Source: Paenibacillus sp. FJAT-26967
Lineage (GTDB): Bacteria > Bacillota > Bacilli > Paenibacillales > NBRC-103111
Assembly: GCF_001541095.1 (NCBI RefSeq)
Contig: NZ_LMXH01000001.1
Location: 2,072,842 to 2,136,841 of the forward strand
Length of the DNA: 64,000 nt
Reading direction: 5' to 3'
Shown here: positions 52,408 to 64,000 of the stretch, piece by piece
Layout of the letters: each line of letters starts with the position of its first letter
Position numbering within the stretch: the first letter of the stretch is position 1
Position numbers and translations under genes: made by a program
The notes under the pieces: model-generated
Databases searched by the model: none
What the model was told of the DNA's origin: nothing
The model's input: the letters and a program-made list of their open reading frames with translations, nothing else

Positions 52408-52503
52408 AAAAAAATTACATAAATTAGTTAATTTATTTATTTACAGGTAAACCTATGATGATTCATTATTTTACAAAATAACTGATACAAGAAAGAAGTG
52501 AGT

Positions 52504-53520
52504 ATGAATTTGGGTATCAAGGAACTGGAATTGAGCATCCCGCCTCTTGTCGGATATCAGTATCTGGCATATCCCCTTTGTACGGTACTCACACGCACGG
52601 AGGCGCTGCCATGGTTTTACAGCAATTTCATCCACCTATATTGTCATCAGGATCTTGATGGAGAGGCGGCTTCGCGCTCTGTGCCTATGACCTTCTACGG
52701 TGAAGATTTTATCCGCTGTCCATGGCTGATCACACAAAAACTGGAGCGCGACTTCTTGCTGGATTCACAGCCTGGAATTACCGAATTTCTGATAAATAGT
52801 ATCCAATCCAAATATACGATCTCTCTTCATGTGGATGAGTTCTATATCCCTCGGAGACGAGTCTATCAACATACTCATTATGCTCACGATATTCTGGTTT
52901 ACGGTTACGATGATGCGAGCAGAACATTCCTTGTTCTCGGCTACGATGAGGAGATGCAGTTCCAGAAGACCGTGGTACCGTACCATGAAATGGAGGAAGG
53001 GTTCCAAAATCTCGAATGGACGGACAATTATGAAGAACAAATCTACCTCTATAAGTTCAATAAATCGGGAAGTTACCGGTTAGATTCGGCGTTCATTCAA
53101 GAATCACTGGAAGAATATATAGCAGGCAGTAATATTTCGTTGCGTAACCGGGGTACGGCGGGCCCGTTGGATGCGGCATTCGGTCTCAATGTTTATGATG
53201 CGCTCATTCGTAACATGCCTGTACTTGTACGTAAACGTGATATCCGGCCCATCCACATTCTGTGGGAGCACAAGAAAATGATGGGACTGCGGATGCGTTA
53301 TTTATGTGAGCAGGGACTTCTTTCACCGGATTTTGCAGAGTGTTTCCGGCCGGTAGAAGAGCAGGCATTCGGTTTGCGCCAGTTATTGATGAAGTATGCC
53401 TTAACGGGAGAGGATTACATTCTGAAGCAGGGACTCGACGAAATGACTCACATCATGGAAAGCGAAAAACGAATATTGGGAACGGTTGTGAAAGCGCTGG
53501 ATCATCAGGTTGTTTCCTAG
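52504..53520 (+). CDS. BtrH-like/C39-peptidase-like protein heading the second cluster
   Basis: About 338 residues, resembling proteins with a BtrH N-terminal domain that accompany Bacilli NRPS genes. YAHDILVYGYDDASRTFLVL near 120-140 has the H-D-x-V-x-G-Y-D layout of the BtrH/papain-like His region, and YCHQDLDG near 40 offers a candidate cysteine. BtrH itself moves an acyl group from a carrier protein to butyrosin. A role in acyl transfer or trimming in this cluster is an inference. ATG at 52504 and GTG at 52498 are both possible, and the ribosome site is weak. The stop lies 34 bases before the NRPS start. Confidence 0.6.
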   Translation: MNLGIKELELSIPPLVGYQYLAYPLCTVLTRTEALPWFYSNFIHLYCHQDLDGEAASRSVPMTFYGEDFIRCPWLITQKLERDFLLDSQPGITEFLINSIQSKYTISLHVDEFYIPRRRVYQHTHYAHDILVYGYDDASRTFLVLGYDEEMQFQKTVVPYHEMEEGFQNLEWTDNYEEQIYLYKFNKSGSYRLDSAFIQESLEEYIAGSNISLRNRGTAGPLDAAFGLNVYDALIRNMPVLVRKRDIRPIHILWEHKKMMGLRMRYLCEQGLLSPDFAECFRPVEEQAFGLRQLLMKYALTGEDYILKQGLDEMTHIMESEKRILGTVVKALDHQVVS

Positions 53521-53554
53521 TATTCGTAACTTATTCCGATTGGAGGTTATTTCT

Positions 53555-56500
53555 TTGGAGACATGCAAGCTCTATCCACTGACGCATCCGCAAAAACGTA
53601 TTTGGTATGTAGAAAATATATACCCGGGTACGAGCATACATAACATCGGAGGACTCATCAAAATTTACGGACCCGTAGATTTTTCTTTACTGGAGGAAGC
53701 AATCAATCAATTCATCCGGCTTAATGAGGCCGTCCGCATAAGGGTAGTCGAGCAGGACGGATCCGTTCAGCAGACGGTGACGGAATATCGCAGGAGAACG
53801 TTCCCGCTAATCGATTTTATGGCCCTGGAATCGGATGTGGATGACTGGGTAAGTGCGGAGTTCGCCAAACCGCTGGCACTGGACGGAGAATATTTGTATG
53901 ATTTTGCACTTGTCAGGATCAGCGAGACAGAAAGCGCATATCTGACAAAATTCCACCATATTATTTCGGACGGCTGGTCTTTTCAATTGATGACGACGCA
54001 CATCAACCAAATCTATACACAATTGATGCAAGGGGAGGAAGTCCGCCAGGAATCCCGCCCTACCTATCTGGACTATATTGAGCAAGAGAATAAGTATCTG
54101 TCATCTCCTCGCTTTATGAAAAATAAAAGGTATTGGAATAATAAATTCGATCACATCCATGACGTTGATCTTCAGAATACAGCAATCGGCACCGCAGGCA
54201 ACCGCAAAAAATTCTCGATAAGCCGGCCTGCTTCCGATTCCATCCGCGAATTTGCACGAACCCATCATATTTCGTTGAATACTTTTTTCGTAGCAACGAT
54301 GCTCCTTTATCTCCACAAAACGAATCAACAAAACCGCCTCCTGATAGGCACTCCTGTATTAAACCGTACGGGGGCCAAAGAAAAAAATACATTCGGAATG
54401 TTTACCAGCACGATGCCCTTTCTCATTGACATCGAGCGTGAGATTTCTTTCTCTTCGTTCATAGATAACGTCAACCAAGAGCTGATCCAATGTTATTTTC
54501 ATCAGAAATATCCTTATAACTTGCTCGTACAGGATCTTCAGCTTCAGCAGCGGGGATTGGATCAATTATTTCAAATATGCGTGAACTATTATAATACGGC
54601 ATTCGACAGGAAATTCGGTCCTGGATGGAAGATGCAGCAAATTGAAGTGAATAACGGCAATCAGCTGTATTCCTTGCAGCTCATCGTCACCGAATGGTCA
54701 TCGGATGAGGAACTGGAGCTGTACTTCGATTATAAGAAAGGCGATTACACGGAGAAGCAGATCGATGAAATACATGACCGGCTTCTCTATTTAACCGATC
54801 AAGTCTTGAGCCGTCCCGATGCCGTACTTAAGGATTTGCAGCTGCTTCTGCCGGATGAGCGTACGAAGCTGCTATATACGTACAACACTACGGATTGCGA
54901 ATATCCTTCGCACAAAACGATCTTGCAGCTGTTTGAAGAACAAGCCGGACGGGCTCCGGACCGCATTGCCGTTTCACATATGGGGCAATCGCTTACCTAC
55001 AGGGAGCTGAACGAACGCGCTAACCGGCTGGCACGAACATTACTGGAGAGAGGGGTCAGCCCTCACACACCGGCAGCTGTCATGGGCCGCCACTCTCTGT
55101 CCATCGTTGTCGGGATCTGGGCGGTTATCAAAGCCGGAATGGCCTATCTTCCGATCGATCCCGACTATCCGAAGGAACGGATCGAGTATATTTTGAAGGA
55201 CAGCGGATCTTCGCTGCTGCTGACGAGCGGCAAGGAATGGGAGCAGCTGTCTTACAAGGGTGAGGTTCTTGCACTCGATGATGAACGTCTGTACAACAAG
55301 GGCGGGAATAATCTGCCTGTCATGAGTACGGCAGACGATTTGGTTTATATGATCTACACCTCAGGATCAACAGGCAATCCCAAAGGTGCGATGATCGAGC
55401 ACAGAGGACTGGTGAACTACATCTGGTGGGCCGCCAAAACGTATATCCGCTCGGAAAACGATGTTTTTGCGCTGTATTCCTCCATTGCTTTTGATCTGAC
55501 CGTGACCTCTATCTTCGCGCCATTGATTAGCGGCTGCCGTATCGAAATCTATGAAGATGACGGAAGGGACTTTATTGTCAAACGAATTGTGGAAGACAAC
55601 AAGGCTACCGTTATCAAGCTGACGCCGGCTCATTTGGCTCTAATCAAAGACATGGATTTCAGCGCTTACACGGTCCGTACTTTCATTGTGGGCGGTGAGG
55701 ATTTGAAATGCTCGCTGGCTCGTGACATTTATGAAAACAGTCGGGGCGGTATTGAAATCCTAAACGAGTACGGACCGACCGAAACCGTAGTCGGTTGTAT
55801 GATTTACCGGTATGATCCTGCGGGCGACGAAGGGGTATCCGTTCCGATCGGGCAGCCGATTGATAATGTGCAGATTTATTTGCTGGATGAGCAGCTGGAG
55901 CCTGTCCCAAACGGATCGGTCGGCGAAATATATATATCCGGGGACGGGGTTGCCAGGGGCTACTTGTACAGGGATGAGCTGACTCAAGAGCGATTTCTGT
56001 CTAATCCTTTCCTTATGGGAAAAAGGATGTACCGGACGGGTGATTTGGCTGTACGCCACGAGAATGGCAGCATCGTTTATTTAGGCCGGATCGATCATCA
56101 GGTCAAAATAAAAGGATACCGAATTGAAATGGGGGAAATCGAGCATCAGCTCCTTGAAATAGACGGCATTGAAAAAGCCGTTGTCATGGACCGCACCGGA
56201 GAAGACGGACAGCAGCAGCTTGCCGCTTATTATGTAGCCAGGGGACCTCTTACGGCTCTGGAGCTGAGGATGAAGCTGGCAGAAGTGCTGCCTTCGTATA
56301 TGATACCTGCTTATTTTGTCCGTCTCGATCAATTGCCGCTTACCCCGAACGGTAAAGTGGACCGACGTCTTCTGCCTGATCCGGAGCAATACATCGAAAC
56401 AAGCGATACCGGACGGACCAGTGGAGTCGAAACAATGTTAATGGATATTTTCCAGGATGTACTCCGGTTGAAAGAAATCACGGTTCAGGACAATTTCTAC

Positions 56501-58027
56501 CGGCTGGGCGGTGACTCAATCAAGGCGATACAAATTGTATCGAAAGTGAAGTCGGCAGGTTATCAGCTTAAGGTGCAGCAAATTATGAGCTATCCGGTTA
56601 TCCGTGAACTGGCTGTGCTTATTGAAATAAACTCGGCGGCTCCGATTGAGCAAGGGCCTAGTCACGGGGAAGTTAAGCCGCTGCCGATTACATCGTGGTT
56701 TTTTACAAGACAATGGAATAATCCTCATTACTACGCGCAGTCAGTTTTGCTCCGCCTAACGCAAACAGTAACGATGGATCAGCTTCATGACGCATTATTT
56801 GCATTAATCAGCCATCATGACACTTTGAGGCTGCAGGTTGATGCCGGCCGCCTGGTCTACCGGACTGTCGGACGCGAGGACGTGGAGCTTGCGCACTTCG
56901 ATCTTGCCGGCATTCCGGAGGATGAGCGGGCTGCGGCTTTGAAGAAACAAGCCGAAACGTTCAAAGCAAGTGTGCGGCTCGGGCAGGGTATGCTGTTCAA
57001 AGCGCTTGTATTTGATGAAGGAAACCACGGACAACGTCTCTTGCTGACAGCACATCATTTGATCGTAGACGGCGTATCCTGGCGAGTTATGCTGGAAGAC
57101 TTAGACCGTCTGCTGAAGGCGGGTTTGAGCGGGTCGGTTGTGACTCTGCCGAATAAAACGCATTCGATTCAAATATGGTCGGATGCCATAGACGCTTATG
57201 GCAGCGAGAGGGCACTTGAACATCTCGACTACTGGAAGTCGGTCGCAGAGAACGCAGAAGACAGCCTTGCTGCGGATTTTCCTTCGGATGATGATCGGCT
57301 TGCCGTATGCGATACGCTAATCCGGGAGCTCTCCGAGCAGGAGACGAGCAAACTGCTGGGGGAGGCGAACACCGCATTCCGAACTCATGCGGGCGATTTG
57401 CTGGTCGCCTCGCTGGCAATGGCCGTGAGCGCTATCACTGGCAAGAATAAAATCACGATCGAACTGGAGGGACATGGACGCGAAGAGTTGTTCGAGAACA
57501 TGGATGTATCCAGAACCGTAGGATGGTTCACATCGCTGTATCCCGTTAATCTCTTGATGGCTGAAACAAAAACAGCGGGGATCATCAAGAGCATAAAAGG
57601 GCAGCTTCGTTCAATCCCGAACAAAGGAATTGACTATGGCATCTTGGCATATGGTTCAGGCAGTATCCCGAAGACCGGCGGCAGCCTGCTCCGCTTCAAT
57701 TATATGGGCGAAATCGATAATCATTTGCACAGCCCTGTGCTCGCCATTGCCGGGGACGATACCGGAAGAGATACATGCCCAAGCAACAGGTTATCCTGTC
57801 TGGCCGATGTGGTAGCCATGATTACGGATAGGAGGCTCCAGATCCGCATGACATACAGCACAGCCATGTTCAGCCGGGATACTATGGACGAGTTAATCCA
57901 AGTTTTTATGCAGCGGCTGGCTGAAGTCATTCAACTAGGCTCAGACAGGGGACAGGCTGATTTTACGCCCTCTGATTTTGAGACTGTCAAGCTCGCACAA
58001 GAAGAACTTGACGTACTCTTCAATTAA
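53555..58027 (+). CDS. Single-module NRPS C-A-PCP-E, predicted to load Asn and make D-Asn
   Basis: 1490 residues; TTG at 53555 is 8 bases after GGAGG, and an in-frame ATG at 53510 overlaps the BtrH-like gene. C domain (~8-440) has HHIISDG at 134-140; as the first module it is likely a starter C domain that adds a fatty acyl group. A domain (~446-943): pocket residues aligned to GrsA PheA read DLTKIGEVGK, the known Asn code. The carrier has LGGDSIKAIQ with serine near 987. The E domain (~1042-1479) has HHLIVDG near 1167, EGHGREE and FNYMGE. The product would be N-acyl-D-Asn, the prodrug cap of zwittermicin-, amicoumacin- and colibactin-type pathways. The end (SDFETVKLAQEELDVLFN) resembles a COM donor and should dock with the NRPS starting at 63700. 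Confidence 0.95.
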   Translation: METCKLYPLTHPQKRIWYVENIYPGTSIHNIGGLIKIYGPVDFSLLEEAINQFIRLNEAVRIRVVEQDGSVQQTVTEYRRRTFPLIDFMALESDVDDWVSAEFAKPLALDGEYLYDFALVRISETESAYLTKFHHIISDGWSFQLMTTHINQIYTQLMQGEEVRQESRPTYLDYIEQENKYLSSPRFMKNKRYWNNKFDHIHDVDLQNTAIGTAGNRKKFSISRPASDSIREFARTHHISLNTFFVATMLLYLHKTNQQNRLLIGTPVLNRTGAKEKNTFGMFTSTMPFLIDIEREISFSSFIDNVNQELIQCYFHQKYPYNLLVQDLQLQQRGLDQLFQICVNYYNTAFDRKFGPGWKMQQIEVNNGNQLYSLQLIVTEWSSDEELELYFDYKKGDYTEKQIDEIHDRLLYLTDQVLSRPDAVLKDLQLLLPDERTKLLYTYNTTDCEYPSHKTILQLFEEQAGRAPDRIAVSHMGQSLTYRELNERANRLARTLLERGVSPHTPAAVMGRHSLSIVVGIWAVIKAGMAYLPIDPDYPKERIEYILKDSGSSLLLTSGKEWEQLSYKGEVLALDDERLYNKGGNNLPVMSTADDLVYMIYTSGSTGNPKGAMIEHRGLVNYIWWAAKTYIRSENDVFALYSSIAFDLTVTSIFAPLISGCRIEIYEDDGRDFIVKRIVEDNKATVIKLTPAHLALIKDMDFSAYTVRTFIVGGEDLKCSLARDIYENSRGGIEILNEYGPTETVVGCMIYRYDPAGDEGVSVPIGQPIDNVQIYLLDEQLEPVPNGSVGEIYISGDGVARGYLYRDELTQERFLSNPFLMGKRMYRTGDLAVRHENGSIVYLGRIDHQVKIKGYRIEMGEIEHQLLEIDGIEKAVVMDRTGEDGQQQLAAYYVARGPLTALELRMKLAEVLPSYMIPAYFVRLDQLPLTPNGKVDRRLLPDPEQYIETSDTGRTSGVETMLMDIFQDVLRLKEITVQDNFYRLGGDSIKAIQIVSKVKSAGYQLKVQQIMSYPVIRELAVLIEINSAAPIEQGPSHGEVKPLPITSWFFTRQWNNPHYYAQSVLLRLTQTVTMDQLHDALFALISHHDTLRLQVDAGRLVYRTVGREDVELAHFDLAGIPEDERAAALKKQAETFKASVRLGQGMLFKALVFDEGNHGQRLLLTAHHLIVDGVSWRVMLEDLDRLLKAGLSGSVVTLPNKTHSIQIWSDAIDAYGSERALEHLDYWKSVAENAEDSLAADFPSDDDRLAVCDTLIRELSEQETSKLLGEANTAFRTHAGDLLVASLAMAVSAITGKNKITIELEGHGREELFENMDVSRTVGWFTSLYPVNLLMAETKTAGIIKSIKGQLRSIPNKGIDYGILAYGSGSIPKTGGSLLRFNYMGEIDNHLHSPVLAIAGDDTGRDTCPSNRLSCLADVVAMITDRRLQIRMTYSTAMFSRDTMDELIQVFMQRLAEVIQLGSDRGQADFTPSDFETVKLAQEELDVLFN

Positions 58028-58044
58028 TAAAGGGGCGGATAATC

Positions 58045-59586
58045 GTGGTAAAGAAACTTGTTTTCTATGTACTGATGATGCTGCTGCTAGTCAGTCCGCC
58101 GGCTGCAGCCGCCGAAGGCGGAGCCCCTTCTCCGCCAAGACAGCCGAATATAGATACGATTGCCATCGACCAGTTCGTGCAGGACCAACTGGTGAAGGCG
58201 CAAAGCCCGGGAGCCGCAGTTGTGGTCGTAAGCGGGGATCGTGTGGTCTATACGAAGGGATTCGGACAGGCTGATCGTGCAGCCGGGATTCCGGCAACAA
58301 GCACGACATTATTTGAATTGGGATCGACTTCCAAAGCATTCACAGGCCTGGCCTTGTTAGAGCTGGAGCGTGACAACGCGCTTAGCCTTGACGATCCGGT
58401 CACCCGCTATATTCCGTGGCTGTCGCTAACCTATCAAGGACAGCCGGCCAAGGTGACGCTGGGTCATCTCCTGCACCATACGAGCGGGGTGCCGTTCGCT
58501 TCGCTCGCTTCCATCCCGATCAGCTCGGGAGAGCAGGCGCTGGAACAGACTGTGCAGGCGTTATCGGGTACGGAGCTGAGCGGCCAGCCAGGGAATAAGT
58601 ATGAATATGCGACCATTAATTATGATGTTCTGGGATTGGTCATCCAGGAAGTATCGGGTATGTCATATGAGGCATACATGTCTGGAATGCTGCAGCGGTT
58701 TGGCATGAGCAACACGGTGACTGCCGCACAGCTGAATAACCCGCAGATGCTCGCCAGGGGATATAAGATCGGATTCGGCTCCCCTCGTTTATACGAAGCA
58801 CCCGTTTACAGGGGAAACACACCCGCCGGTTATTTAGTCTCCAGTGCGGACGATATCGGGCAGTGGCTGCTGCTCCAGCTCGGAACGAGGAGTATCTCCG
58901 AGGCGCAGCGGAACATCATCGAACGTTCCCATATGCCTGATACGAGCGTAGGGCCGGACGCGAGCGGAGCCTACTATGCCGCAGGATGGTTTGTAACGGC
59001 GGACGGCAAAGAGCTCTCGCACCAGGGATCTAACCCTAATTTCTCGTCCTATTTCATAATGCGCCCGCAAGAGCAGCTCGGTGTGGGAGTGCTTGCCAAC
59101 ATCAACTCGGCCTATACGTTTCATATCGGCCAAGGTTTGATGAGCCTGCTGCGGGAGCAAGAGCTTCCGCCCGCTGCAGCGGATTTCTATCCGCAGCTTG
59201 ATCGCATTTCGATGATCGTGCTGAGCCTTATCGGTGTCTTCATGCTTATGATGGCTGGTAAAACGATCGGAATACCAGGACAAATTCGTCGTCAGAGGCG
59301 CATTTTCGTTCCGCCAAAAGGTAGGAGGCTTGTAGGTCTGGGAGCTGCGCTTTTGTTGACCGGGACCTCATTGTGGGGAATCGGGCTGCTGCTCGAGGCT
59401 GCCTTTGCAGGCTTACCGCTTGCCGTAGTCGCGGTATGGTCGCCTGTGACGGTCATCTGGCTCGTCTATGCGCTCTACCTATTCGTCGGAATGGCGTTCC
59501 TGTTCTTTCTTGCAGTCTGGTTGTTTCCATCAGTGAAACGCCGCTGCGGGCCGGTTCTTCCCGCTTCTGCAGAGGAGGTGATCTAA
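58045..59586 (+). CDS. ClbP/ZmaM/XcnG-like prodrug-activating serine peptidase
   Basis: 513 residues. A signal peptide (VFYVLMMLLLVSPPAAAA) exports a class C beta-lactamase-like domain. The catalytic SxxK is S94-T-S-K97, almost exactly the position in ClbP (S95, K98), with LLHHTSGVP near 142-150 and the Y188-A-T tyrosine region as the general base. Three membrane segments follow at ~392-410, ~430-455 and ~470-495, as in ClbP, which anchors the domain on the outer face. GTG at 58045 follows AGGGGCGGA. Located next to the N-acyl-D-Asn-making module, it should remove that cap outside the membrane and release the active product. Confidence 0.9.
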   Translation: MVKKLVFYVLMMLLLVSPPAAAAEGGAPSPPRQPNIDTIAIDQFVQDQLVKAQSPGAAVVVVSGDRVVYTKGFGQADRAAGIPATSTTLFELGSTSKAFTGLALLELERDNALSLDDPVTRYIPWLSLTYQGQPAKVTLGHLLHHTSGVPFASLASIPISSGEQALEQTVQALSGTELSGQPGNKYEYATINYDVLGLVIQEVSGMSYEAYMSGMLQRFGMSNTVTAAQLNNPQMLARGYKIGFGSPRLYEAPVYRGNTPAGYLVSSADDIGQWLLLQLGTRSISEAQRNIIERSHMPDTSVGPDASGAYYAAGWFVTADGKELSHQGSNPNFSSYFIMRPQEQLGVGVLANINSAYTFHIGQGLMSLLREQELPPAAADFYPQLDRISMIVLSLIGVFMLMMAGKTIGIPGQIRRQRRIFVPPKGRRLVGLGAALLLTGTSLWGIGLLLEAAFAGLPLAVVAVWSPVTVIWLVYALYLFVGMAFLFFLAVWLFPSVKRRCGPVLPASAEEVI

Positions 59587-60318
59587 ATGAAAATGAAGTT
59601 GTTCTGTCTGCCTTACGCCGGAGGCTCCGCTACCATTTATACGAGATGGAAACGCCATCTGCACGGCGATATCGAATTGCATCCCGTCGAATTGTCCGGA
59701 AGGGGGAAAAGATTGCTCGAACCCCATTACGGCAGCATGGATGAACTGGTCGAGGATTTATACGGGTATCTGGACCAAGAGCTGGACGAAACTGATTTTG
59801 CTTTCTTCGGCCATAGTATGGGCGCCCTCATCGCTTATGAACTGGCGCATGCCGTCAAGAAGAAGAGAGGGCGCGAGCCCCTCCATTTATTCGTCTCGGG
59901 GACTTATCCCCCTCATGCCCGCAGGAGTCTTCCACTGCATCTTCTATCGGATGCAAGACTTCAGCAAGAAATTAGGCAGCTTGGCGGAACCGATGACGAA
60001 TTATTTGAGCGGGAGGAACTGCTGCGACTCTTTTTGCCAGGACTGCGGAGAGATCTGGAGCTGGTGGAAACGCACTGCTTCAAGAGCAGAGCGGAGCTTA
60101 TTCACTGTGATATATCCGTACTCAACGGAAAAGAGGATAAAGCGACCGAAGGTTTTAACCTTCTGGAGTGGGCCTCATATGGCAGCCGGGGCTGTCAACT
60201 TTATGAGTTCGAAGGAGGTCATTTTTTCATAAATGAACATACCGAGCAGGTAGTGTCGCTCATCCATGATGTGCTGCGCAGCCCTGTTGTACAAATGTCC
60301 ACTAAAAAGGAGTCGTGA
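59587..60318 (+). CDS. Type II thioesterase
   Basis: 243 residues with an alpha/beta-hydrolase fold. LFCLPYAGGSATIYTRW at the N-terminus, the nucleophile motif GHSMGAL near residue 76-82, and GGHFF near residue 216 (catalytic His) define the external thioesterases of NRPS/PKS systems, which remove wrongly loaded or stalled groups from carrier domains. The ATG directly follows the peptidase stop (TAA then ATG), with GAGGAGGTG ahead, so it is translationally coupled to it. It lies in the co-directional cluster operon with the cassette downstream. Confidence 0.92.
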   Translation: MKMKLFCLPYAGGSATIYTRWKRHLHGDIELHPVELSGRGKRLLEPHYGSMDELVEDLYGYLDQELDETDFAFFGHSMGALIAYELAHAVKKKRGREPLHLFVSGTYPPHARRSLPLHLLSDARLQQEIRQLGGTDDELFEREELLRLFLPGLRRDLELVETHCFKSRAELIHCDISVLNGKEDKATEGFNLLEWASYGSRGCQLYEFEGGHFFINEHTEQVVSLIHDVLRSPVVQMSTKKES

Positions 60319-60322
60319 ATTG

Positions 60323-61177
60323 ATGATACGAACGGTCGGAGTAGTCGGTGCGGGTGTAATGGGCAGTGACGTTGCTTTGGATCTGGCTTGCTATGGATAC
60401 GAAGTGGTGCTCAAAGATATTAACGAAGATGTCTTGCATCGAGCCAAAGAAAAAATCAGTACGGATTTTCGGCTGCTGAAGCTGGTCAAGCCTAAGGCGA
60501 AGCAGCTTACCGTGGAAGACGTTCTCTCCCGGATTACCTTTACAACGGCCTATGATGACTTCAGACGCGTCCAGTTTGTTATCGAGAACGTGACAGAGGA
60601 ATGGGAACTTAAGAAAGCGGTGTTTACGGAGCTGTCCAAGGTATGCGGCTTACATACAATCTATGCCGTTAATACAAGCTGCATTTCCATTACGAAGGTG
60701 GGCTCGTTAATGCCAAGACCGGAGAATGTTATCGGTATGCATTTCATGAACCCGGTCCCGATGAAGGAACTGGTCGAGGTCATCCGGGGCGAGCACACTT
60801 CCGACGAGACCGTTGCCACCGGGGAGCAGTTTTTGAAATCTTTCGATAAAGTCCCGGTAGTTGTTCGAGATTTTCCCGGTTTCGTGACGAATCGTGTTCT
60901 CATGCTGACGATCAACGAATGCGTCTGGACCGTGCAGGACGGAGTCGCAGAGCCGAAGGATGTCGATAAGATTTTCCGTCTGGGCTTCGGCCATAAGATG
61001 GGGCCGCTTGCTACATGCGATCTGATCGGCCTGGACACCATTCTCAATTCACTGCTGGTGCTGCAGGACAGCTACAAGGATCCGAAGTTCCGGCCCTGCC
61101 CGCTGCTTGTAAAGATGGTGGATGCCGGTTACCTGGGCAAAAAATCAGGAAAAGGATTTTTCGATTACAGCAAGTAG
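60323..61177 (+). CDS. 3-hydroxyacyl-CoA dehydrogenase-like, hydroxymalonyl-ACP pathway (FkbK/ZmaG-type)
   Basis: 284 residues. The N-terminal NAD-binding Rossmann fold GVVGAGVMGSDVALDLA and the NTSCISI and GMHFMNPVPMKELVE motifs place it in the 3-hydroxybutyryl-CoA dehydrogenase family. In zwittermicin (ZmaG), xenocoumacin and FK520 (FkbK) clusters this family oxidises the glyceryl-ACP intermediate. ATG at 60323 follows AAAAGGAG; the frame extends upstream into the thioesterase gene, but no ribosome site supports an earlier start. It is the first gene of a dehydrogenase, FkbH-like, ACP and acyl-CoA dehydrogenase set. Confidence 0.9.
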   Translation: MIRTVGVVGAGVMGSDVALDLACYGYEVVLKDINEDVLHRAKEKISTDFRLLKLVKPKAKQLTVEDVLSRITFTTAYDDFRRVQFVIENVTEEWELKKAVFTELSKVCGLHTIYAVNTSCISITKVGSLMPRPENVIGMHFMNPVPMKELVEVIRGEHTSDETVATGEQFLKSFDKVPVVVRDFPGFVTNRVLMLTINECVWTVQDGVAEPKDVDKIFRLGFGHKMGPLATCDLIGLDTILNSLLVLQDSYKDPKFRPCPLLVKMVDAGYLGKKSGKGFFDYSK

Positions 61178-61189
61178 GGAGGGATAACG

Positions 61190-62254
61190 ATGGATGGAGC
61201 AGCGGAAAAGCTAAAGGAAGTCAAATGCGTGATCTGGGATCTGGACAATACGATGTGGGACGGCATTTTGCTGGAGTCGGAAGAGGTCGAGCTAAAGCCG
61301 CGCATGCGGGAGCTTCTCGCGGAGCTGGATTCTCGCGGCATTCTGCAATCGATCGCAAGCCGTAATGATACGGAGCATGCGATGGACAAGCTTAAGGCTT
61401 TTGGTATCGACACCTATTTTCTTTATCCCGAAATCAATTGGAATGCCAAATCAATGTCGATCGATAAAATACGCGGGAACCTGAACATCGGGATGGACAC
61501 GATTCTGTTCATCGACGATCAGCCCTTCGAACGGGATGAGGTCTTAAGCGTCCATCCGGAGGTTGAGTGCCTGGATGTGACGCCATACGAGACATTGCTC
61601 GGTCACCCGCGTCTGAATCCCCGGTTCATTACGGAAGATTCAAGACGCCGACGCGTCATGTATCTGGAAGACATAGAGCGCAAAAGCGAAGAAGAATCGT
61701 TCGCGGGGCCCCAAGAAGCGTTCCTGAGCTCGCTCGGCATGCGCTTTGTCATAAGCGAGGCGAGAGAGGAGGATTTGAAACGGGCGGAGGAACTGACAAT
61801 CCGCACGAATCAGCTGAATGCGACGGGTTATACGTACAGCTATGAAGAGCTGGACAAGATCAGACAATCGGATAATCATATTCTGCTGGTATGTGAATTG
61901 ACGGATAAATATGGCTCCTACGGCAAAATCGGGCTCGCTCTGATCGAATTGAAGGAAAGCTGCTGGCACCTGAAAATGATGCTTATGTCCTGCAGGGTGA
62001 TGTCACGCGGAGTTGGTACCGTAATGCTCACCTATATCATGCAGCAGGCGAAAAACGAAGGAAAAGTGCTTAGGGCCGACTTCAAACAGACAGACCGCAA
62101 CAAGATGATGTATGTTACGTACCGTTTCGCCAATTTTACGGAAGTCTCCAATGACGGTGAAGGAAATATTCTGTTCGAGAACAATTTAAATCAAATTCAG
62201 CCGTTCCCGCCTTATATTGATGTGTTGGTCACGGTTGCAGGGAGAAAGGGGTAA
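61190..62254 (+). CDS. FkbH-like HAD-type glyceryl transferase
   Basis: 354 residues. The HAD-like domain starts with the nucleophile motif WDLDNTMWDG near residue 17, followed by SRND and FIDDQPFERDEV motifs; a GNAT-like region holds SCRVMSRGVGTVML near residue 262. This is the FkbH family, which draws a glyceryl unit from 1,3-bisphosphoglycerate, dephosphorylates it and attaches it to the ACP encoded next. ATG follows the dehydrogenase stop by 12 bases. It is the chemically committing step of the hydroxymalonyl- (or methoxymalonyl-) ACP pathway. No O-methyltransferase gene is visible yet. Confidence 0.93.
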   Translation: MDGAAEKLKEVKCVIWDLDNTMWDGILLESEEVELKPRMRELLAELDSRGILQSIASRNDTEHAMDKLKAFGIDTYFLYPEINWNAKSMSIDKIRGNLNIGMDTILFIDDQPFERDEVLSVHPEVECLDVTPYETLLGHPRLNPRFITEDSRRRRVMYLEDIERKSEEESFAGPQEAFLSSLGMRFVISEAREEDLKRAEELTIRTNQLNATGYTYSYEELDKIRQSDNHILLVCELTDKYGSYGKIGLALIELKESCWHLKMMLMSCRVMSRGVGTVMLTYIMQQAKNEGKVLRADFKQTDRNKMMYVTYRFANFTEVSNDGEGNILFENNLNQIQPFPPYIDVLVTVAGRKG

Positions 62255-62258
62255 CTAG

Positions 62259-62510
62259 ATGGAAACTAAACATAAAATCCGCAGTTTTATTGAAAGCAAT
62301 CTGGTTGTATTTGAGGATGAGGCAGTGTTCACCGACGATGATCATATCTTTCAGAAGGGTTTCGTCAATTCCTTATTCGCGATGAAACTTCTCAGCTACA
62401 TTGAACAAGAGTTCGGATTCACGGTGAGTAACGAGGATTTGGATATCGCCAATTTTAGCACGCTTAACAACATCGTAAAGCTAATCGAAAAGCATAAGCA
62501 GGAGGCCTAA
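62259..62510 (+). CDS. Acyl carrier protein of the hydroxymalonyl-ACP pathway
   Basis: 83 residues, a four-helix carrier protein. The phosphopantetheine serine lies in GFVNSLFAMKLL near residue 46, where the usual GxDS is degenerate as in FkbJ/ZmaD-type carriers. It is 4 bases from the FkbH-like stop and directly followed by the acyl-CoA dehydrogenase. It should carry the glyceryl unit through oxidation to hydroxymalonyl-ACP for delivery to a PKS module. Confidence 0.9.
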   Translation: METKHKIRSFIESNLVVFEDEAVFTDDDHIFQKGFVNSLFAMKLLSYIEQEFGFTVSNEDLDIANFSTLNNIVKLIEKHKQEA

Positions 62511-62513
62511 GCG

Positions 62514-63695
62514 ATGATTGCTCAGACATGCGCTTCTGCCGCCCAAATCATAGAGGAGGCTAAAATTTTTGCCGCCCGGGAAATCCGGCCGATCGCAGGG
62601 GAAATCGACGTCAAAGGCGAGCTTCCCCGCAGCTTAATTGGCAGAATGGGACAGCGGGGATATCTGTCGGCCAGCTGGCCGGAGGAATACGGCGGTCTGG
62701 GACTGGACCCGGTGGCCTATGGACTATTTACAGAGCAGATCGGCAAAGCATGCTGCAATACGAGGGCTCTCATAACCGTTCAAACCTCACTGCTGGGAGA
62801 GACTATACTGCGTTTCGGCACAGAAGCGCAGAAAAGATACTGGCTGCCGCCAATGGCGAGGGCCGAGAAGCTGGGCGCGTTCGCCTTATCGGAGCCAAAT
62901 GTGGGCTCGGATGCGAAAAACGTTCAGACCGCCTACCGCAAAGAAGGGAGCCATTATATTCTGAATGGCACCAAGAAGTGGATTTCTTTCGCCGCTATCG
63001 CTGATTTTTTCGTCGTGATCGCAGCCGATTCGGGCGGGCAAATCACCTCATTCATCGTCGAGCGCGAACGTGAAGGGGTGCATACAATCCCGATGCCCGG
63101 CATGCTCGGCAACCGGGCGGCTCATATTGCGGAGATTCAGCTTAATGAAGTGAAGATCCCGGCGGAGAACGTGCTCGGAATCGTTGGCGGAGGCTTTACT
63201 TATATTGTATCCACGGCGCTTGATCACGGCAGGTACAGCATTGCATGGGCAGGAGCGGCAATTGCAGGCGAGGCGCTGGAAGCGATGGTTGCGTACTCGA
63301 TATCGCGGTCCCAGTTCGGTGAGAAGCTGCACCAGTTCCAGCTGATCAAAGGGCTGATTGGCGATGCGGTCACCAAGGTTCATGCCGCGCGAACGCTTTG
63401 CATTGCCGCAGGTGAAATGCGCAAAAGCGGGGCGGCGGAAGCGGTTGACGAGACAGCGATCGCCAAATATTTTACATCGAAGGCGGCTGTTGAGGTCACT
63501 AACGATACGGTGCAAATACACGGTGGCAACGGTTGCCGCAGCGGTTACCCTGCCGAACGGTTATTCCGGGAAGCCAAGGTGCTGGAAATTATTGAAGGCA
63601 CCAGCCAAATTCAGCAGCAGGTCATTTCTCAATACGGACTTCGCAAGTATGCGGTGAAGAAGCAGGAGGAAGTTCGAACAGGAAAGGATGTGTGA
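62514..63695 (+). CDS. Acyl-CoA dehydrogenase-like oxidase of the hydroxymalonyl-ACP pathway (FkbI/ZmaE-type)
   Basis: 393 residues of the flavin-dependent acyl-CoA dehydrogenase fold. Recognisable are AFALSEPNVGSDAKNVQT near residue 120, KKWISFAAIADFFVV near 155, RSQFGEKLHQFQLIKG near 262, and the C-terminal QIHGGNGCRSGYPAERLFREAKVLEIIEGTSQIQ. In the related zwittermicin and FK520 sets this enzyme finishes oxidation of the ACP-bound three-carbon unit. It ends 4 bases before the next NRPS start, consistent with one long operon. Confidence 0.92.
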   Translation: MIAQTCASAAQIIEEAKIFAAREIRPIAGEIDVKGELPRSLIGRMGQRGYLSASWPEEYGGLGLDPVAYGLFTEQIGKACCNTRALITVQTSLLGETILRFGTEAQKRYWLPPMARAEKLGAFALSEPNVGSDAKNVQTAYRKEGSHYILNGTKKWISFAAIADFFVVIAADSGGQITSFIVEREREGVHTIPMPGMLGNRAAHIAEIQLNEVKIPAENVLGIVGGGFTYIVSTALDHGRYSIAWAGAAIAGEALEAMVAYSISRSQFGEKLHQFQLIKGLIGDAVTKVHAARTLCIAAGEMRKSGAAEAVDETAIAKYFTSKAAVEVTNDTVQIHGGNGCRSGYPAERLFREAKVLEIIEGTSQIQQQVISQYGLRKYAVKKQEEVRTGKDV

Positions 63696-63699
63696 TAGC

Positions 63700-64000
63700 G
63701 TGAAGGAACCTCAGAAGCTGGACAAAAGCAATGTTGAAGATATTTTGGCACTGTCCCCTATGCAGTCCGGGATGCTGCTTCAATACTTGAAAGATCCCGA
63801 AACTACGCAGTACGTCGAGCTAATCGCACTTAGCGTGAGCGGGGAGCTGGAGCCCTCGTTGTTTGAGCAGGCATGGGTATCCGTTGTGCAGACCAACGAG
63901 GCGCTGCGGTCATTGTTCCGCTGGGAAGAGGTGAACCAGCCTGTTCAAATCGTGCTGCGGGAGCACCGTCCCGTTATTCGTTATGAGAACTATTCCGGTT
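63700..64000 (+). CDS. NRPS, N-terminal part of a condensation domain (runs off the window)
   Basis: The first 100 residues of a larger synthetase. GTG at 63700 is followed by VEDILALSPMQSGMLLQYL near residues 13-31, the opening of a D-accepting condensation domain, and LRSLFRW near 73. The upstream segment KEPQKLDKSN looks like a COM acceptor. With the D-Asn-making module ending in a donor-like tail, this protein most likely accepts N-acyl-D-Asn and adds the next residue. The rest is outside the window. Confidence 0.88.
   Translation, partial: MKEPQKLDKSNVEDILALSPMQSGMLLQYLKDPETTQYVELIALSVSGELEPSLFEQAWVSVVQTNEALRSLFRWEEVNQPVQIVLREHRPVIRYENYSG

Follow-up and report, generated by a model that had tools for sequence, protein, structure and literature searches.

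A probable amicoumacin-type dihydroisocoumarin gene cluster with a predicted N-acyl-D-Asn prodrug start in Paenibacillus sp. FJAT-26967

Introduction

In the amicoumacin cluster of Bacillus subtilis (amiA-O), AmiA and AmiJ are reported to be non-ribosomal peptide synthetases (NRPSs), AmiB a peptidase, AmiI a hybrid of NRPS and polyketide synthase (PKS), and AmiK-M PKSs, together giving eight modules that use three amino acids and five malonates (PMC4894447). The smaller proteins are given as a thioesterase (AmiD), two dehydrogenases (AmiE and AmiH), an acyl carrier protein (ACP; AmiG) and the 352-amino-acid (aa) AmiF, which a footnote links to methoxymalonate biosynthesis (PMC5055758). In the prodrug peptidase ClbP, the D-Asn side chain is reported to be held by S188, H257 and N331; among prodrug peptidases, position 188 is S or T and position 257 is H or N (PMC9889268). 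A ClbP inhibitor (compound 3) is reported to deplete zwittermicin and edeines and to bring their acyl-D-Asn precursors to light (PMC9889270). Here we describe a 64,000-nucleotide stretch of Paenibacillus sp. FJAT-26967 (the window; assembly GCF_001541095.1, contig NZ_LMXH01000001.1, positions 2,072,842 to 2,136,841), in which a starter NRPS gene and the adjoining peptidase gene very probably form the start of a dihydroisocoumarin cluster of the amicoumacin type, a known kind of system in which the producer protects itself by way of an N-acyl-D-Asn prodrug. The cluster was read past the window end on the same contig of this genome (G000, 18 contigs); positions are those of the window unless prefixed with G000:C1 or a locus label.

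Results and discussion

The starter synthetase and the ClbP-type peptidase

The starter NRPS lies in an open frame at 53510-58027, with a GGAGG-like site upstream of its TTG start at 53555. Its Pfam matches are two condensation-family stretches, AMP-binding, AMP-binding_C and PP-binding. The second condensation-family stretch contains PITSWFF (aa 1044), HHLIVDGVSW (aa 1167) and NYMGEI (aa 1382), which we take to be epimerisation motifs, and the domain order is therefore read as condensation-adenylation-carrier-epimerisation (C-A-T-E). The starter adenylation code, read by motif anchoring with PheA numbering as DLTKIGEVGK, is identical in all eight genomes compared; it has been treated under Asp/Asn, and is described as compatible also with a Cya-3 moiety (PMC12283262).

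The second gene encodes a protein of 513 aa that matches Pfam Beta-lactamase at 220.6 bits and aligns with full-length ClbP (PDB 7mdc, 3.7e-58) over residues 44-480, the membrane part included. Residues were equated through this alignment, with chain residue 65 taken as ClbP S95 (offset 30). An S12 fold is indicated by the SxxK motif and the Tyr of YxN, as S94, K97 and Y188 correspond to the catalytic S95, K98 and Y186. The D-Asn contact positions are also occupied as in prodrug peptidases: S188 corresponds to T190, H257 to N258 and N331 to N330, while E92, which stands behind N331, is E91. W466 and K241 are likewise retained, as W465 and K240. Hydropathy peaks at residues 5-23, 390-408, 432-450 (overlapping with 446-464) and 473-491 are compatible with a predicted signal segment and three C-terminal membrane segments. 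A preliminary description, made from the window sequence, had named the exact Asn code and epimerisation domain of the starter module, and a signal peptide, SxxK at 94-97 and three C-terminal membrane segments in the peptidase; each of these has its counterpart here, the signal peptide as an N-terminal hydrophobic segment and the membrane segments as a C-terminal hydrophobic region.

The SxxK and YxN motifs, D-Asn contacts and a predicted C-terminal membrane domain are shared with ClbP, AmiB, XcnG, ZmaM and the edeine and paenilamicin peptidases. The length is ClbP-like, and the additional portion that characterises the ZmaM type (1,100 aa) is absent. The NRPS and peptidase genes are collinear in 7/7 further genomes and at all nine named Paenibacillus loci with the closest peptidases (overlapping sets), so the pairing is not a chance one. 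These nine, among the best 80 of 185 named loci, are from P. lutrae, P. sp. UNC499MF, P. sp. EZ-K15, P. solani, P. profundus, P. apiarius, P. sp. 2.1, P. dendritiformis and P. bouchesdurhonensis.

Gene order and predicted product

The locus agrees with amiA, B and D-M in the arrangement of its genes and in their domains, from starter NRPS and peptidase through thioesterase and extender-unit genes to NRPS-PKS, A-T NRPS and three PKSs (Table 1). Both the extension beyond the window and the comparison with characterised clusters had been proposed in the preliminary description. The first revealed the large synthases and the tail genes behind them; the second, made from described architectures, matched the amicoumacin order. 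Differences are a BtrH_N-like gene in front, an operon of BpsA-like, GNAT, FkbH-like and ACP genes plus an amidase-like gene behind, and an extra condensation-FkbH-carrier unit on the last PKS, denoted C*-FkbH-T. The xenocoumacin (xcn) system of Xenorhabdus resembles this locus in its assembly logic and its peptidase XcnG (PMC5055758, Table 1), but has its genes in another order.

Table 1. Features of the cluster and of related lone operons. C, condensation; A, adenylation; T, carrier; E, epimerisation; KS, ketosynthase; AT, acyltransferase; KR, ketoreductase; C*, condensation-family domain of the last PKS.
Feature	Position	Strand	Basis
BtrH_N-like protein, 340 aa, first gene of conserved block	52498..53520	+	Pfam BtrH_N 26.8 bits, below 29.7 cut-off
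Starter NRPS C-A(Asn)-T-E, AmiA position	53555..58027	+	Pfam, code DLTKIGEVGK, E motifs
Adenylation core, code DLTKIGEVGK	54932..55966	+	Pfam AMP-binding aa 460-804
Carrier (T) domain	56438..56614	+	Pfam PP-binding aa 962-1020
Epimerisation-type domain, borders approximate	56684..57994	+	Motifs at aa 1044, 1167, 1382
ClbP-type membrane peptidase, AmiB position	58045..59586	+	Pfam, ClbP alignment, residues
Catalytic SxxK (S94-T-S-K97)	58324..58335	+	SxxK motif
Type II thioesterase, AmiD position	59587..60318	+	Pfam Thioesterase 164.5 bits
3-Hydroxyacyl-CoA dehydrogenase-like, extender-unit gene, AmiE position	60308..61177 (open frame from 60266; start codon uncertain)	+	Pfam
FkbH-family protein, extender-unit gene, AmiF position	61190..62254	+	NCBIfam TIGR01686 FkbH 271.2 bits, cut-off 146.65
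Acyl carrier protein, AmiG position	62259..62510	+	Pfam PP-binding
Acyl-CoA-dehydrogenase-like, extender-unit gene, AmiH position	62514..63695	+	Pfam
NRPS-PKS C-A-T-KS-AT-KR-T-C, 3079 aa, AmiI position	63688..64000, cut by window end; runs to G000:C1:2145768	+	
Half-C-A-T protein, 887 aa, AmiJ position	downstream of window		
KS-AT-KR-T, 1577 aa, AmiK position	downstream of window		
KS-AT-T-KS-AT-KR-T, 2599 aa, AmiL position	downstream of window		
KS-AT-T-C*-FkbH-T, 2162 aa, AmiM position, last PKS	downstream of window		FkbH domain by motif
Tail genes: BpsA-like, GNAT, FkbH-like, ACP, dimethylformamidase-like (amidase-like)	behind last PKS		
Lone BpsA-GNAT-FkbH operons	L167:9710-12735; L168:9716-12744; L169:9573-12597; L170:1054-4199		

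The specificity motifs follow the amicoumacin pattern of an Asn starter, Leu at the AmiJ position, and one hydroxymalonyl followed by four malonyl units. The AmiJ-position protein has the code DAWFLGNVVK in 8/8 genomes, reported as the commonest Leu code (PMC12283262). Among the ATs of the window genome, the first, in the AmiI-position protein, carries GYSFG, the motif given for the hydroxymalonyl-specific ZmaA-AT (PMC4207774), and is predicted to be of that type; the other four, with GHSxG and HAFH, are predicted to be malonyl-type. The code for the second residue is DAFLVGAVIK or DAFLIGAVIK, with a variant DAF.YGATVK in one genome (G268), and no occurrence of DAFLVGAVIK was found in the open-licence literature searched. 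Here the locus departs from amicoumacin, which has Asn as its second residue, and from xenocoumacin, which has Arg. As the code is unlike either, the residue is probably uncharged. PM-94128 and Y-05460M-A have Leu- and Val-like parts. With Leu or Val as second residue, a product with [M+H]+ near 423.249 or 409.233, respectively, would be expected, as calculated from the formula of amicoumacin A.

We propose that the starter NRPS would make an acyl-D-Asn, to which the next proteins would attach the probably uncharged residue, a single hydroxymalonyl unit that undergoes ketoreduction, and then leucine. Four malonyl units would follow. The AmiI- and AmiK-position modules each have a KR domain, as does the second of the two AmiL-position modules; the first AmiL-position module and the AmiM-position module have none. 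The KR of the first malonyl module would reduce the Leu carbonyl to give the lactone oxygen, the carbonyl left by the second would remain for ring closure, the KR of the third would lead to an aromatic CH, and the fourth, lacking a KR, would leave the phenol at C8. From this ketoreductase pattern the chain is predicted to fold to an 8-hydroxy-3,4-dihydroisocoumarin, as in the amicoumacins, for which a wavelength of 314 nm has been used (PMC4894447). The capped compound would be exported in inactive form, and the membrane peptidase, predicted to cleave N-acyl-D-Asn amides, would remove the acyl-D-Asn outside the membrane. The preliminary description had proposed such capping and uncapping as a self-protection scheme, and the Asn code, C-A-T-E order, ClbP-type residues and amicoumacin gene order lend it support at the sequence level. 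Its suggestion that the product may be new is narrowed: the compound would belong to the dihydroisocoumarins of amicoumacin type, either as a new member or as a known one. In this reading the amicoumacin-type prodrug scheme would reach several genera of the Paenibacillus type, in which the gene set is conserved and the second residue differs.

Distribution and the isocoumarin antibiotic of P. profundus

With the C*-FkbH region as query, 17 of 392 genomes from this order gave matches at E ≤ 1e-120. Identity is 68-100% in nine of these, the source genome included, and 38-44% in the other eight. The cluster is collinear with few gaps in seven other genomes and in P. profundus YoMME. The 3-hydroxyacyl-CoA dehydrogenase gene is missing from its place in G268, as is the amidase-like gene in G095 and G334, and the second ACP is uncalled in G391 and P. 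profundus. Because the flanks differ at both sides of the cluster in one genome (G004), we place its borders at the BtrH_N-like gene, an ortholog of which has the same place in 7/7 further genomes, and at the amidase-like gene; the cluster runs to about G000:C1:2173177.

A known isocoumarin antibiotic has been isolated from P. profundus (Kalinovskaya et al. 2013, as cited in PMC12698334; also reported in PMC12843358). For strain M4.5, the antiSMASH account in PMC12698334 (2025) gives two PKS-NRPS regions and no cluster similar to known isocoumarin clusters. As strain YoMME carries the gene set, the cluster described here is a strong candidate across strains, not a proof, for the origin of this antibiotic, and would supply a gene cluster for what has been an orphan compound.

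The terminal C*-FkbH-T unit and the tail operon

AmiL-M of X. bovienii has 3419 aa (PMC5055758, Table 1), against a sum of 4761 aa for the two counterparts here, and the excess is mostly the terminal unit. In C*, the catalytic HHxxxDG reads HNIVSDG. This is so in all 13 orthologs read (nine, together with those of P. profundus, EZ-K15, P. sp. 2.1 and P. bouchesdurhonensis), whereas HH is seen in 6/6 more distant C-FkbH modules, a count that omits two further matches (G248 and G318). The nearest relative of C* within the cluster is the C domain that ends the AmiI-position protein (35%), which likewise stands behind a PKS carrier. In 8/8 comparisons, conservation is higher in C* than in the AT that shares its protein, and decay of the unit is rejected for this reason.

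In vioprolide, a C-FkbH-T module is reported to attach glycerate as an ester (PMC8949500); for corramycin, glycerate incorporation by such a module has been proposed (PMC10099666). The unit described here shares their domain order, and in the window genome has both the FkbH HAD motif, DCDNTLW, and the carrier serine, in LGGTSL; the HAD motif is DCDHTLW in two loci (L032 and L160). It differs in closing the assembly line, where it follows a PKS carrier, and in having HNIVSDG where an ester-forming module would have HHxxxDG. The loss of the second His makes ordinary condensation doubtful. We tentatively suggest, with low confidence, that the unit is functional in hand-off, release or cyclisation rather than as an ordinary condensation module. 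At a similarly low level of confidence, it might act as a new kind of chain-end element in which C* passes the polyketide to a glyceryl-loaded carrier, or cyclises it beside one, so that release of the isocoumarin or a conjugate would depend on glycerate chemistry. Any such conjugate would be a glyceryl or polyamine one, made together with the BpsA-GNAT-FkbH-ACP operon. We found no report of a C-FkbH-T end on an isocoumarin line, or of this Paenibacillus cluster, in the open-licence literature, outside which most subscription papers lie, and we know of no such end in the xenocoumacin line. The fusion of a C domain that has lost its catalytic His with a predicted glyceryl-loading unit, in the last protein of a probable isocoumarin line, is a conserved and testable oddity.

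A PDB search with the BpsA-like protein of the tail operon gave a match to N4-bis(aminopropyl)spermidine synthase (8e-25), and the FkbH-like protein is 35% identical to the first stand-alone FkbH. The GNAT protein has no PDB relative at E ≤ 0.001, and for the amidase-like protein the matches are dimethylformamidase and N-acetyl-beta-phenylalanine acylase. Between the last PKS gene and the operon, at about 94627-94682 in extended numbering (G000:C1:2167468-2167523), a terminator-like hairpin with T6 behind it was read by eye.

The BpsA-GNAT-FkbH genes adjoin the terminal-unit gene in seven further genomes and in P. profundus. BpsA matches over the cut-off occur in 48/392 genomes, and GNAT and FkbH genes stand beside BpsA at seven of the 20 loci examined, none from the 17 genomes matched by the C*-FkbH query. 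In four regions of 20, 20, 20 and 9 kb the three genes stand beside other genes in every case, with an ACP called in two, and the only sign of an isocoumarin-line gene was, in L170, a KS-like match at 24%. The operon therefore occurs on its own as well, which suggests a small polyamine-plus-glyceryl pathway. We do not accept it as a proven part of the antibiotic pathway.

Weighing of the alternatives

Several points weigh against the amicoumacin-type assignment and its prodrug start. The likeness to the Ami and Xcn systems was judged from described architectures and sizes rather than by direct alignment, and counterparts of amiC, amiN (kinase) and amiO (phosphatase) were not recognised in the cluster. 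The AmiL-position PKS of G095 and G334 shows just one of the two expected AT motif sets (GHSxG, AFHS), so that one module may be without a working AT. The link to P. profundus spans different strains, and the terminal unit could alter the product.

Other such points concern the peptidase. ClbP W460 is replaced by L459, at a position termed strictly conserved; W460A is described as having no effect (PMC9889268). ClbP K235, reported to position E92 through a salt bridge (PMC9889268), is L236 here and K in only two of 80 homologues (the best 80 of 185 named loci, with position 188 included in the search pattern). Two orthologs have Q in place of E92 (L064, P. sp. 2.1; L065, P. dendritiformis G25-126), a change that in ClbP is reported to admit D-Asp substrates too (PMC9889268). 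All 80 homologues have N at the N331 position, among them the 26 whose fetched flanks contain no A domain. The contact residues thus place the peptidase in the ClbP-like group, and separate this group from S. aureus Flp and the outgroups L002 and L003, but discriminate poorly within it and do not prove a D-Asn prodrug role. We see the prodrug assignment as carried mainly by the predicted Asn-specific C-A-T-E neighbour and the amicoumacin gene order.

Two further observations were made on the homologues. At the W460 position (residue 459, 59419-59421), L110 and eight of the nine closest named loci have L, while L065 has a gap. Residue 332 (59038-59040), the third of the NPN motif next to N330, is N at 39 of the 41 loci (among 80) whose flanks contain an Asn-code A domain by a strict pattern, and at 6/26 loci with no A domain there. 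N at this position may mark prodrug peptidases proper.

The alternative that survives best, which we nevertheless consider unlikely, accepts the prodrug start but has the C*-FkbH-T unit and tail operon divert the chain away from simple dihydroisocoumarins, for example to a glyceryl or polyamine conjugate. The invariance and strong conservation of the terminal unit, the adjacency of the operon across genomes and the vioprolide precedent (PMC8949500) all speak for it. Against it stand the altered HHxxxDG motif of C*, the report that P. profundus makes a known isocoumarin (PMC12698334), and the occurrence of the operon on its own.

A far less probable reading makes the peptidase an ordinary protein of the penicillin-binding or Flp-like kind, placed beside the NRPS by chance. 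Its best PDB match by E-value is indeed S. aureus Flp (4gdn, 1.3e-59, residues 35-359), and Pfam and NCBIfam label it as beta-lactamase-like only. However, N330 and T190 are L and N in the Flp alignment, and N and S/T are likewise missing from these positions in the outgroups L002 and L003. In its membrane region the protein aligns with ClbP, and synteny with the NRPS also disfavours this explanation.

Least probable of all is a colibactin-like cluster, as the literature suggests for some Paenibacillus strains: a starter module and ClbP-type peptidase are common to both, but colibactin uses an aminomalonyl extender set without FkbH, whereas an FkbH gene (61190-62254) lies in the extender cassette here, the first AT carries GYSFG, and the gene order and the Leu code match amicoumacin (clb genes were not aligned). 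Zwittermicin was also considered and set aside, as GYSFG and a prodrug start are shared with it but gene order and protein sizes follow ami.

Related loci

At a locus of P. arenosi CAU 1523 (L120), a related starter NRPS (59%) and FkbH (75%) lie near a different ClbP-like peptidase (39%), and this is perhaps a variant of the cluster. The source genome itself has two further ClbP-like peptidases. One, a 42% homologue in a 1044-aa open frame of ZmaM-like length (L018), lies with an Asn-code A domain (DLT.IGEVG) at G000:C1:1962000-1981999 (L171), a likely second N-acyl-D-Asn system. The other, also at 42%, is a 527-aa frame at G000:C1:562119-563510 (L019, L172); it lies in a region of PKS/NRPS genes, and the 20 kb fetched contain no Asn-code A domain. 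Finally, a 7029-aa open frame at 2212-23301 of the window, part of which matches condensation and carrier sequence, represents a separate large NRPS upstream of the cluster.

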